Of a DNA stretch of 64,000 nucleotides, positions 18,011-60,266 are shown one piece after another. How positions within the stretch are numbered: the first letter of the stretch is position 1; the number at the start of each line of letters is the position of its first letter. A model generated the notes under the pieces. That model saw only the letters and a program-made list of their open reading frames with translations. It did no database searches and had not been told where the DNA came from. The position numbers and the translations under genes were made by a program. Location of the stretch: assembly GCA_003138975.1 (NCBI GenBank), contig PLHQ01000153.1, positions 102,433 through 166,432 on the forward strand, written 5' to 3'. This DNA is from Acidobacteriaceae bacterium (GTDB lineage Bacteria; Acidobacteriota; Terriglobia; Terriglobales; Acidobacteriaceae).

Positions 18011-18094
18011 AAGCTGACTCGAACTCTGCATTTTGACTTCTGCCTTCTGGCTTTTCTTCCCACCTGTTATTCTTTTCCATTCCAAGGAGCACTC

Positions 18095-23911: not shown

Positions 23912-24003
23912 TGGAAATGCAGTGGTGAGTGATCGGTAGCCAGTGATTAGTAACAGCGACCGAGTAACGCCGTTGGTTTTGCTGACCACTAGCCACTGAC
24001 TAT

Positions 24004-24038
24004 AAAACAAAAAGGCCCTCCGCGCTGTGCGGAGGGCC
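24004..24038 (-). terminator. Intrinsic terminator of the downstream APC permease gene
   Basis: Minus strand GGCCCTCCGC-acagc-GCGGAGGGCC-TTTTTGTTTT. Confidence 0.9.
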
Positions 24039-24051
24039 GCGCTACAAGACG

Positions 24052-46192: not shown

Positions 46193-46690
46193 GTGTCCCA
46201 CACCTACGTCTCTGAACTCATCCATTGCGTCTTCTCCACCAAGCAACGCCGCAATCTAATCTCGCCTGAGGTGCAACCACAACTCTGGTCCTTCCTCGGC
46301 GGCATCGCTCGCAAGAACGGATTCAAAGCGCTCATGGTCGGCGGAACCGAAAATCACGTACACATCCTGCTGTCATTACCCGCAACCCTGACCTTAGCCA
46401 AAGCCATGCAATTGGTAAAAGGCGCATCCTCCCATTGGATGAACGAACAATTCAAATCAGAATTCGCCGGGCAAGAAGGCTACGGCGCCTTCACCCTCGG
46501 AATCTCGCAAAAGAAAGACACCATCGCCTACATCCGGAGCCAAGCGGAACATCATCGCAAGCATAATTATGAAGAAGAATTTCTCGCATTCTTGAAGAAG
46601 AACGGCGTGGAATATGATCCGAAGCACGTGCGGGGATATTCAGGCATCCCTACGGGATGCGCTTCCGAATTCCCGACCACCCGGCGTTAA
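46193..46690 (+). CDS. REP-associated tyrosine transposase / IS200-like transposase (ORF opens at TTG 46169; GTG 46193 likelier)
   Basis: SHTYVSELIHCVFSTKQRRNLI...GGTENHVHILLSLP (HUH), KKDTIAYIRSQAEHHRKHNYEEEFLAFLKKNGVEYD (Y1). Confidence 0.92.
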   Translation: MSHTYVSELIHCVFSTKQRRNLISPEVQPQLWSFLGGIARKNGFKALMVGGTENHVHILLSLPATLTLAKAMQLVKGASSHWMNEQFKSEFAGQEGYGAFTLGISQKKDTIAYIRSQAEHHRKHNYEEEFLAFLKKNGVEYDPKHVRGYSGIPTGCASEFPTTRR

Positions 46691-48784: not shown

Positions 48785-48847
48785 GAAATCTGAAACTCAT
48801 AAGCTGAAGGCTGATAGCTAGCGGCTGGAAGCTAGCAGCCAGAAGCG
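48785..48847 (-). repeat. Heptanucleotide-periodic array, 9 units
   Basis: + strand GAAATCT GAAACTC ATAAGCT GAAGGCT GATAGCT AGCGGCT GGAAGCT AGCAGCC AGAAGCG; ends 3 nt from the LuxR-gene stop. Confidence 0.85.
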
Positions 48848-51495: not shown

Positions 51496-51607
51496 GCAAG
51501 TGATTCCCTGCCCTGTGATCCCCTGCGCCCTCTGTGTTGAAGATTTTAGACGCTATCGCGAGTAAACAGCCGTCCTACGGTACACTGAAATGAAGGAAAC
51601 CCGATCA

Positions 51608-51943
51608 ATGCCCCCAGTTACCGAACAGGACGTCCTAAGCGCTCTGAAAAGCTGCTACGATCCCGAGATCCCCGTCAACATCGTCGACCTCGGCCTCATC
51701 TATACCGTCACATTCGCGCCCGTCCCCGCCGACACGCCTGAACAAGCCAGGCAGGACGTCACCGTCGACATGACCCTCACCTCACCCGGCTGCCCCGAGC
51801 ACGTCAACATCAGCGCCCAAGTAAAATCACGCCTCGAACAGTTGCCCGGCATCCGCAACGCCGCAGTCAATGTTGTCTGGACTCCGCCCTGGACCCCCGA
51901 ACGCCTCAGCCCCGATGCCAAGAAACAGCTCGGCATCGACTAA
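51608..51943 (+). CDS. MIP18/DUF59-family Fe-S cluster assembly protein (SufT/PaaD-like)
   Basis: VLSALKSCYDPEIPVNIVDLGLIYTVTF...DMTLTSPGCPEHVNISAQVKSRLEQLPGIRNAAVNVVWTPPW. Confidence 0.92.
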   Translation: MPPVTEQDVLSALKSCYDPEIPVNIVDLGLIYTVTFAPVPADTPEQARQDVTVDMTLTSPGCPEHVNISAQVKSRLEQLPGIRNAAVNVVWTPPWTPERLSPDAKKQLGID

Positions 51944-52025
51944 AGTCAGAAGTCAAAAGTCAAAATACAAAAGTAACAAGGTGGTCGATTTTCACTTCTG
52001 CATTCTGACTTCTAACTTCTACATT
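51943..52025. repeat. Inverted pair of heptanucleotide arrays between convergent genes
   Basis: AAGTCAG AAGTCAA AAGTCAA AATACAA AAGTAAC ... TTTTCAC TTCTGCA TTCTGAC TTCTAAC TTCTACA. Confidence 0.87.
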
Positions 52026-52029
52026 GCGC

Positions 52030-52335
52030 TCACCCGCCAAACTCCTCCCACACATCCATCGCGCTCTGCCCCGCCGCCTCAGTAATCCTCTTCCCGGCGC
52101 GCGCCGCCATCTCCATCACCTGCATGCCACGGTCGAAATAATCCGGCAACTGCTTCCGCACGTTCTCAAACTTTTCCGGATACTCCGCCGCCAGCACTGC
52201 CAGCGCCACCCCACCCGCCAGCACTCCCGCCGCATTTCTCCTCTTCAAAAACAAGACCGTTGCAGCCCCAACCGAAGCCGCAACCACCGCTTTCTTCCAG
52301 CTCTCCATGTTTGCCTCGCGAAATTTTTTCTTCAC
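52030..52335 (-). CDS. Small hypothetical membrane-associated protein
   Basis: MESWKKAVVAASVGAATVLFLKRRNAAGVLAGGVALAVLAAEYPEKFENVRKQLPDYFDRGMQVMEMAARAG. Confidence 0.6.
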   Translation of the reverse strand: MKKKFREANMESWKKAVVAASVGAATVLFLKRRNAAGVLAGGVALAVLAAEYPEKFENVRKQLPDYFDRGMQVMEMAARAGKRITEAAGQSAMDVWEEFGG

Positions 52336-52483: not shown

Positions 52484-53725
52484 ATGTCGCGCCGCTCAAC
52501 CGCCCACGCCGCTCCTAATGCAACTCCAATCGTAGCCAGCCGGAAGCCCGATAGCCGAAGCCCGAAGCCCGCTTTTTTGCTAAAGTCACTCATCGCTCTG
52601 GTCCTCACTCTGACTCTCGCCGCCTCAGCCCAAACCAGGCCCCGCGCCCGCGATCTCGGCGTCCCCTTCGACGGCACTCCCGGCCTCAACAACGCCATTA
52701 CAGATGTCAAAGGCGTCGAGGTCGGCCACACCACGATCATCACCGGCAGCGGCAAACTCATAGTCGGCAAGGGTCCCATCCGCACCGGCGTCACCGCCAT
52801 TCATCCCCGCGGCAAGAACGCCAACGACGCCGTCTTCGCCGCCTGGTTCACCCTCAACGGCAATGGTGAAATGACCGGCACCACCTGGGTCGACGACTCC
52901 GGCTTCCTCAACGGCCCCGTCATGATCACCAACACTCACAGCGTCGGCGTCGTCCGCGACGCCGTCATCGCCTGGAAAGTAAACCACGGCACACCCGACA
53001 TGGAAGGCTACTGGTGGTCCCTCCCCGTCGTCGCCGAAACCTGGGATGGATGGCTCAATGACATCAACGGATTCCACGTCCACCCCGAAGACGCCTTCCA
53101 CGCCCTCGACGTTGCCCGCTCCGGCCCAGTCGAGGAAGGCAACGTCGGCGGCGGCACCGGCATGATCTGTAACGAATTCAAAGGCGGCATCGGCACCTCC
53201 TCCCGTATCCTCGACACTAAAGCTGGAGGCTATACCGTCGGTGTCCTCGTCCAGTGTAACTACGGCCGCCGCGACCAGCTACGCATCGCCGGCGTTCCCG
53301 TCGGTAAAGAAATCCCCGAGCATCCCGCCTATGGCGACAGTGAAGATACCGGCTCCATCATTGTCATCGTCGCCACCGACGCACCGCTCATCCCCACGCA
53401 ACTCAAGCGCATCGCTAAAAAGGTCTCTCTCGGCCTCGGCCGCGATGGCAGCTACTCCGGAGATGGCTCTGGAGACATCTTCCTCGCCTTCTCCACCGCC
53501 AATCCTGGCGCCGTCGGCACCAAGGGACTCCACCAGTTAACGATGCTCCCCAACGATTCCCTCGACCCCATCTTCCTCGCCACCGTCCAAGCCACCGAAG
53601 AAGCCGTCGTCAACGCTATGGTCGCCGCCGAAACCATGAAAGGCATCGACGACCACGAAGTCATCGCCTTACCGCACGACCGCCTCCGCGAAGTGCTAAA
53701 AAAGTACAACCGCCTGGCAAGATGA
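52484..53725 (+). CDS. P1 family peptidase (DmpA/L-aminopeptidase D-esterase-like), secreted
   Basis: RARDLGVPFDGTPGLNNAITDVKGVEVGHTTI...RTGVTAIHP...GEMTGTTWVDDSGFLNGPVMITNTHSVGVVRDAV...GNVGGGTGMICNEFKGGIGTSSRIL; SD ggagg. Confidence 0.92.
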   Translation: MSRRSTAHAAPNATPIVASRKPDSRSPKPAFLLKSLIALVLTLTLAASAQTRPRARDLGVPFDGTPGLNNAITDVKGVEVGHTTIITGSGKLIVGKGPIRTGVTAIHPRGKNANDAVFAAWFTLNGNGEMTGTTWVDDSGFLNGPVMITNTHSVGVVRDAVIAWKVNHGTPDMEGYWWSLPVVAETWDGWLNDINGFHVHPEDAFHALDVARSGPVEEGNVGGGTGMICNEFKGGIGTSSRILDTKAGGYTVGVLVQCNYGRRDQLRIAGVPVGKEIPEHPAYGDSEDTGSIIVIVATDAPLIPTQLKRIAKKVSLGLGRDGSYSGDGSGDIFLAFSTANPGAVGTKGLHQLTMLPNDSLDPIFLATVQATEEAVVNAMVAAETMKGIDDHEVIALPHDRLREVLKKYNRLAR

Positions 53726-58884: not shown

Positions 58885-58920
58885 CTTGCTAAGAACTAAA
58901 AGCTAAGAGCCAAGAGCTAG
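58885..58920 (-). repeat. Heptanucleotide-periodic array overlapping a stop codon
   Basis: + strand TTGCTAA GAACTAA AAGCTAA GAGCCAA GAGCTAG; supplies the TAG stop of the aminotransferase gene. Confidence 0.82.
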
Positions 58921-60266
58921 GTCACAGCCTTATCCGTGATCTCGAGCCCGCGATCGATAATGGCGAACGCTTCGCGCATCTGCTGCTCGTTGATGCACAG
59001 TGGAGGATTGGTGAAGAAAGTGTTCCAGCGAACAAACGTGTAAAGGCCTTGCTCGCGGAAGAAGCGTCCGAGCGCAACCATTTCATCGGACGTGCCATTG
59101 AACGGCGCCATCGGCTGACGCGTTTTGCGATTGCGAATCAGTTCGACGATGCCGAACAATCCAATCGAGCGCACCGCGCCCACTGACGGATGTTTCGCCT
59201 GCATCTCCGCACCCAGCTGCTTCAGGATCGCGCCCATTTTTTTCGCGTTGTCGATCAGTCCATCTTCTTCATACACGCGAATGGTCGCCAGCGCCGCCGC
59301 GCATCCCATGGGATGGCTGTTGTAAGTCAGCCCTCCATAAAACACCTTGTCCTGAAAATGCTGCGCGATGTGATGCCGCATGCCAACCGCTCCCAGCGGC
59401 AAATAGCTGGACGTCAATCCCTTCGCCATGCAAAGCAGATCGGGAACCACCTTCCAGTGATCGACCGCAAACCACGCGCCGGTGCGTCCGAAGCCAGCCA
59501 TCACCTCATCGGCAATCATCAATATGCCGTACTTGTCGCACAGCTTGCGGATACCTTCGAGATATCCATCAGGAGGAACAAGAATGCCATTCGTCCCAGT
59601 TACGGGCTCGAGGATGAATGCCGCAATCGTCTGCGGGCCTTCGAGCTGAATCGTTTCTTCAATCATGGCGAGTGAAGTCTCGGCCGATTCCCATCCGCGC
59701 TCAATGCCGTGATAAGGATCGAGCACGTGAATCACGCCCGGAATCCCAGGCTCCGCGGCCCATCTGCGAGGATCGCCGGTAAGACTCATCGCTCCCGCGG
59801 TCGCGCCGTGATAGGAACGATAGCGCGCGATGATCTTGTGGCGTCCGGTAAAGAAGCGCGCGATCTTGATGGCGTTCTCGTTGGCCTCAGCGCCGCCGTT
59901 GGTGAAGAAGAAGGTGTCGATGTCTCCGGGAGTGATTTCGGCGAGCTTCGCGCCAAGGCGCGCGCGAACTTCTGTCGCCATGAAAGGATTCGCATAGGCG
60001 AGCGTTGCTGCCTGCTCGCTGATCGCCTGAATGACGCGCTCGTCGCCGTGTCCGATGTTGACGGACATGAGTTGGCTGTTGAAGTCGATGAAGCGCTTCC
60101 CTTCCGGCGTATAGAAGTAAATCCCTTTGGCGCTGGCGACGGGAATGGGATCGACCTTCGACTGTGCCGACCATTCATAAAGCGTGTGCTTGCGGGAAAG
60201 GTCGACGATTTCCTTGCCAGTCATCTTCGTGGTCGTCACCGGATTAGCAATGGTAGTAGTCATCAA
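58917..60266 (-). CDS. Class III (omega) aminotransferase
   Basis: GIYFYTPEGKRFIDFNSQLMSVNIGHGDERVIQAI...FFFTNGGAEANENAIKIARFFTGRHKIIARYRSYHGAT...LMIADEVMAGFGRTGAWFAVDHWKVVPDLLCMAKGLTSSYLPLGAV. Confidence 0.93.
   Translation of the reverse strand: MMTTTIANPVTTTKMTGKEIVDLSRKHTLYEWSAQSKVDPIPVASAKGIYFYTPEGKRFIDFNSQLMSVNIGHGDERVIQAISEQAATLAYANPFMATEVRARLGAKLAEITPGDIDTFFFTNGGAEANENAIKIARFFTGRHKIIARYRSYHGATAGAMSLTGDPRRWAAEPGIPGVIHVLDPYHGIERGWESAETSLAMIEETIQLEGPQTIAAFILEPVTGTNGILVPPDGYLEGIRKLCDKYGILMIADEVMAGFGRTGAWFAVDHWKVVPDLLCMAKGLTSSYLPLGAVGMRHHIAQHFQDKVFYGGLTYNSHPMGCAAALATIRVYEEDGLIDNAKKMGAILKQLGAEMQAKHPSVGAVRSIGLFGIVELIRNRKTRQPMAPFNGTSDEMVALGRFFREQGLYTFVRWNTFFTNPPLCINEQQMREAFAIIDRGLEITDKAVT

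Follow-up and report, generated by a model that had tools for sequence, protein, structure and literature searches.

Two heptamer arrays separate an iron-sulfur assembly gene from a convergent gene in the window (the whole 64,000-nt stretch of Acidobacteriaceae DNA that was analysed), and judged by their sequence they are one copy of a dispersed family of heptamer hairpins, here called type A. We favor, with a probability of roughly 55%, the reading that type A is a REP-like dispersed heptamer hairpin found at gene 3′ ends, which acts as an RNA stem-loop and not as an intrinsic terminator.

A One-Sided Hairpin between Convergent Genes

The features of the site, together with a second copy in the window, are as follows.

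51590..51943, plus strand: FeS_assembly_P (DUF59/MIP18-type) gene, ending in the array (Pfam PF01883, E 1.2e-16)
51943..51977, plus strand: array arm 1, five AAGTCAG-like heptamers from the last base of the TAA (sequence reading; period 7 in TRF)
51978..51988, no strand: 11-nt spacer between the arrays (sequence reading; the minus-strand fold puts the loop at 51977-51991)
51989..52023, plus strand: array arm 2, five TTCTGAC-like heptamers, GAAGTCA-like on the minus strand (sequence; TRF)
51947..52021, minus strand: hairpin of 30 contiguous pairs (7 G·U) with a 15-nt loop (RNA fold; covariance model R2, E 1.1e-12, this copy being part of the R2 training alignment)
52030..52335, minus strand: conserved 101-aa gene, convergent, without a Pfam family (matches in 31 of 61 genomes, own genome counted)
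18025..18053, plus strand: second copy, a half-lost array upstream of fabI (start 18095)

The stop codon of the FeS_assembly_P gene is the TAA at 51941-51943, and its last A opens arm 1, whose plus-strand units read AAGTCAG, AAGTCAA, AAGTCAA, AATACAA and AAGTAAC (51943-51977). The units of arm 2 are TTTTCAC, TTCTGCA, TTCTGAC, TTCTAAC and TTCTACA (51989-52023). TRF recovers both period-7 arrays, in agreement with an earlier, sequence-only reading in which the convergent gap consists of five AAGTCAR-like and five TTCTGAC-like heptamers and the first unit shares the last base of the TAA at 51943. The gap itself, given there as 83 nt, is 86 nt between the stop codons (51944-52029). The FeS gene adjoins the 101-aa gene in all 30 loci fetched from the same genus.

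On the minus strand, the gap folds at −37.2 kcal/mol (z −8.3; none of 200 shuffles was as good), with 52021-51992 pairing with 51976-51947, so that the mRNA of the 101-aa gene would carry a strong hairpin 8 nt beyond its stop. The plus-strand fold is weak (−17.0 kcal/mol, z −2.0), because the seven G·U pairs of the minus strand become A·C mismatches. The hairpin is real, yet strongly one-sided: the long, imperfect, gap-filling hairpin that had been proposed exists as 30 pairs on the minus strand and is only weakly formed on the plus strand.

A Dispersed Family of Heptamer Hairpins

Period-7 arrays are common in this genome. Within 1.08 Mb, they occur at 19.4 per Mb, versus 0-2 per Mb at lags 4, 5, 8, 10 and 11, and 22 were observed versus 3 in a Markov simulation (one of the 22 being a run of N); given this over-representation, the array at the site is more than chance. 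Lags 7 and 14 also dominate the self-similarity of 16 long inverted-repeat stems in the 1.08-Mb sample, and further period-7 arrays, some of them inverted pairs, are built from GAACTGA, AGCTGA(A/T), GAAGCCC, GAGGTCY, GAGTACC, CAACGAC and AATCAAC. Period-7 or period-14 arrays near gene ends or starts are likewise seen in the window at 58888-58923 (GCTAAGA-like), 48809-48846 (GCTGAAA/GCTAGC-like) and 52538-52571 (AGCCCGA-like).

The form common to 31 aligned type-A hairpins is (GAAGTCA/GAAGTAA/GAAGGCA)n-GAATGCA-GAAGTAA, a loop and the mirror of the first half, and copies are ~60-110 nt long. The heptamer motif recurs in the genome under study, for example on contigs C39, C122 and C155, and the motif CAGAATGCAGAAGTNA (one mismatch) is found in 35 of the 45 genomes of the genus, a reversed control giving few matches. 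Wider searches relied on a covariance model with a hand-set structure (R2), used in place of an RNAalifold consensus (R1) that was dropped for its wrong register. Each hairpin scores on both strands under R2, and the eight strand-matches in the genome under study thus represent about 4-5 strong hairpins. Two genomes of the same genus, G061 and G026, have 30 and 18 strand-matches; the same search gave none in G035 and none in G037, the latter from another family. At least 150 occur in G494, an acidobacterium from a different family, and the genomes reached via Pyrinomonadaceae, Verrucomicrobia and two Anaerolineales records have 63, 22, 7 and 4. Rfam covariance models gave no match to the hairpin at E 1 or better.

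A scan of GTDB contigs for exact hairpins returned 14 records, mostly Acidobacteriaceae and other Acidobacteria metagenome-assembled genomes (MAGs), the others being from Pyrinomonadaceae, two Anaerolineales MAGs and one Verrucomicrobia MAG. The cross-phylum cases are MAGs; one Anaerolineales copy lies between putative prfA and prmC genes on a 719-kb contig, a setting in which chance binning is less likely, though possible. The distribution of type A is patchy over order and phylum, with copies scattered through soil Acidobacteria. G494 probably holds at least 75 near-perfect TGAAGGCAG...TCA hairpins, which mostly begin on stop codons; its copies have near-identical stems and loops that are only weakly alike.

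Position Relative to Genes

Gene contexts were read from about 1.1 Mb of the genome under study and the fetched stretches, using a simple purpose-made gene caller. In tandem contexts, full type-A copies follow the upstream stop at a median distance of 8 nt, with ~50 nt separating them from the next start; divergent-gene gaps hold 6 of the 37 full copies by these rough gene calls. In G494, stems usually begin with TGA, and in 13 of 20 copies, which were the best-scoring ones and not a random draw, an open frame at least 120 codons long terminates in frame at this TGA (p 1.5e-5 against a background of 10% per TGA, or 20% for two ends). Furthermore, 13 of 19 G494 copies are flanked on both sides by open frames of one strand, and the second frame starts a median of 10 nt and at most 22 nt past the stem. 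A new promoter would not fit into so short a space, and transcription must therefore pass through these copies. Operon-internal copies are also found between petB and petD (cytochrome bc operon) and, in the Anaerolineales MAG, between prfA and prmC.

These positions bear on the sequence-only reading's proposal that the hairpin is a bidirectional intrinsic terminator between convergent genes. Three observations favor such a terminator: the hairpin is long and sits in a convergent gap, copies hug stop codons, and full copies are mildly enriched in convergent gaps (11 of 37, p 0.03). However, the fold is one-sided, with a weak plus strand, and the scan found no U-tract after the stem at this copy; over the family, a U-tract (at least 6 T in 8) follows only 1 of 40 hairpin-strands. 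Compared with the stable GC-rich hairpin of intrinsic terminators, this copy is mixed: its minus-strand stem is strong but AU-rich. A strong terminator within an operon, or just before a same-strand start as in G494, would silence the operon, and canonical terminators with a GC-rich stem and a U-run (38 strict ones) coexist with the family in these genomes. Together, these data leave the bidirectional terminator poorly supported and very doubtful at this site, and termination is unlikely to be the family's general role. They also caution that a gap-filling hairpin between convergent genes is not automatically a terminator. In the window at 23912-24050, a canonical GC-stem and U-run terminator is directly followed by a heptamer-like hairpin, the two coexisting.

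Replacement of Hairpins at Orthologous Gaps

Among the 30 same-genus loci, the gap between the FeS gene and the 101-aa gene is 7-49 nt in 12 genomes, where it has no clear hairpin, and at least 59 nt in 18. The long gaps hold a type-A hairpin in the genome under study, in G029 (5+5 units) and also in G062, an AAGCCCG heptamer hairpin in G036, G026 and G015, a GAGGTCY hairpin in seven genomes (that of G031 having a stem of roughly 50 bp and a fold of −119 kcal/mol) and a CCGGAAG hairpin in G004 and G035; the remainder contain other palindromes or unrelated sequences. The families differ between the sister species G036 and G029, both in this gap and at one other site. Where the genome under study has the half array upstream of fabI, a complete type-A hairpin is present in five relatives.

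In the petB-petD gap, three species have type A and others have unrelated palindromes in its place. Two more dispersed palindrome families, GGGGACAGCCGCC..GGCTGTCC and TTCCTCACCGGGC..GGAATGACA, occupy this gap in different species. When the whole gap is folded, type-A and most TTCCTC-type copies are weak (z −2.7 to 0.5) and most GGGGACAG-type gaps fold strongly. The idea that a strong hairpin is always kept in the petB-petD gap is unsupported, given the weak scores of the type-A and TTCCTC-type copies.

Orthologous copies are 83-86% identical in their stems and 54% in their loops. Whether the two arms change in concert had been put forward as a check on the hairpin, and the answer is negative: the two arms of a single copy are no better matched than arms taken across copies (87.0% of cells paired versus 87.8% after shuffling). 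In the petB-petD copy of G036, moreover, a single arm is two units longer than in the orthologues, and we reject arm co-evolution. An excess of G·U over A·C, considered as a sign of selection on one RNA strand, is striking at this copy and absent over 20 sense-oriented copies (19 versus 18). Neither arm covariation nor a G·U excess thus speaks for selection on RNA pairing, and the copies could be neutral passengers, retained at the places where they are least harmful.

This is the main rival to the reading we favor. It holds that type A is a neutral or selfish repeat, whose hairpins are scattered by slippage plus palindrome copying, or by a transposase acting in trans, and are purged by selection from coding and promoter DNA alone, gene ends being where they stay. 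The absence of covariation and strand bias would fit it, as would the patchiness over order and phylum and the replacement of copies by unrelated palindromes at the same sites; polymerase slippage has also been named as the cause of the excess of heptamers in bacteria (PMC4692102). On the other hand, the exact start on a stop codon in G494 (13 of 20) argues against it, and a simple decaying copy would not show orthologous stems that are kept while loops diverge, nor the weakly similar loops that accompany the near-identical stems of G494. Furthermore, Y1 transposase genes are present but not associated with the copies: the type-A motif lies near 1 of 30 Y1_Tnp loci, about background, and thus gives no link to RAYTs. 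On balance, we consider neutral scattering possible and rather less probable than an RNA role. The window contains one gene with a Y1_Tnp (PF01797) domain (46220-46543, plus strand; G000:C107:148652-148975), which has no type-A hairpin within 1.5 kb.

A Possible Role as an RNA Stem-Loop

For the REP-like, gene-end RNA stem-loop, we infer arrival by copying, survival at gene ends and action of the hairpins in RNA. Copies would arrive and be replaced through slippage plus palindrome copying, or through a transposase acting in trans, and would survive mainly at gene 3′ ends. An RNA stem-loop placed at the stop codon or a short way beyond it could then block 3′ exonucleases, or separate or adjust the translation of neighboring genes; for this copy, the minus-strand mRNA of the 101-aa gene is the main transcript expected to form the stem.

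A more general proposal, which seems unlikely, is that these hairpins form a cross-phylum intercistronic class, with the stop codon in the base of the stem and the far end just before the next start. With the spacer folded out, the stop would lie close to the start, and translation and mRNA decay of the neighboring genes would thereby be coupled or set. Any hairpin sequence would serve, and unrelated families could therefore swap at conserved sites. Hairpins that hug stop codons, appear in widely separated phyla and give way to unrelated ones at one and the same gene end offer a direct test of whether bacteria need "a hairpin here" or a particular sequence.

Comparison with Known Repeats

Heptamer repeats are over-represented in bacteria without a clear role, and REPs have RAYT partners. 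Our search of a literature library found no paper on these acidobacterial hairpins. Type A is like REPs in being a dispersed extragenic palindrome with many copies; unlike REPs, it has no RAYT link that we could find. REPs are 20-40 nt long and most carry GTAG/CGTC tags, whereas type-A copies are ~60-110 nt, built of heptamers and without a common tag. REP/BIME elements are dispersed extragenic palindromes, and ribosome stalling has been reported for REPs near stop codons (PMC3733652, PMC12306157).

The GGGAATC heptamers of Xanthomonas occur as 70-75 inverted pairs per genome that can fold into stem-loops; they are mostly intergenic, at distances of ~28 nt to the 5′ gene and 160 nt to the following gene, and are few between divergent genes (PMC4692102). 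Type A shares with them the inverted heptamer arrays, the intergenic location and the proximity to the 5′ gene, although the Xanthomonas unit is G-rich, quadruplex-prone and unrelated in sequence (PMC4692102). Replacement by other hairpin families at orthologous gaps is seen here, and we found no report of it for Xanthomonas (PMC4692102).

TAACTGA heptamer repeats occur in Beggiatoaceae, Cyanobacteria and Bacteroidetes (PMC4679880). They are direct repeats, and in the Beggiatoaceae genome they lie mostly upstream of starts, with inverted pairs nearly absent (PMC4679880). Type A resembles them in its intergenic, degenerate 7-nt arrays, its patchiness across phyla and its indels in steps of 7. 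Cyanobacterial STRRs, too, are intergenic degenerate 7-nt arrays akin to the TAACTGA repeats.

The P6b stem-loops of the Nostoc trnL intron consist of degenerate heptamers of two classes, TDNGATT (Class I) and NNTGAGT (Class II) (PMC4476775). As in type A, the stem is made of heptamers, one class can replace another wholesale at one site with the structure kept, and loops vary more than stems; unlike type A, P6b is a single intron locus and not a dispersed gene-end family. Type A has the degenerate 7-nt tandem units and mainly intergenic location of the tandem heptamer repeats, and its units GAAGTCA, GAATGCA and GAAGTAA differ from GGGAATC, TAACTGA, TDNGATT and NNTGAGT (PMC4692102, PMC4679880, PMC4476775).
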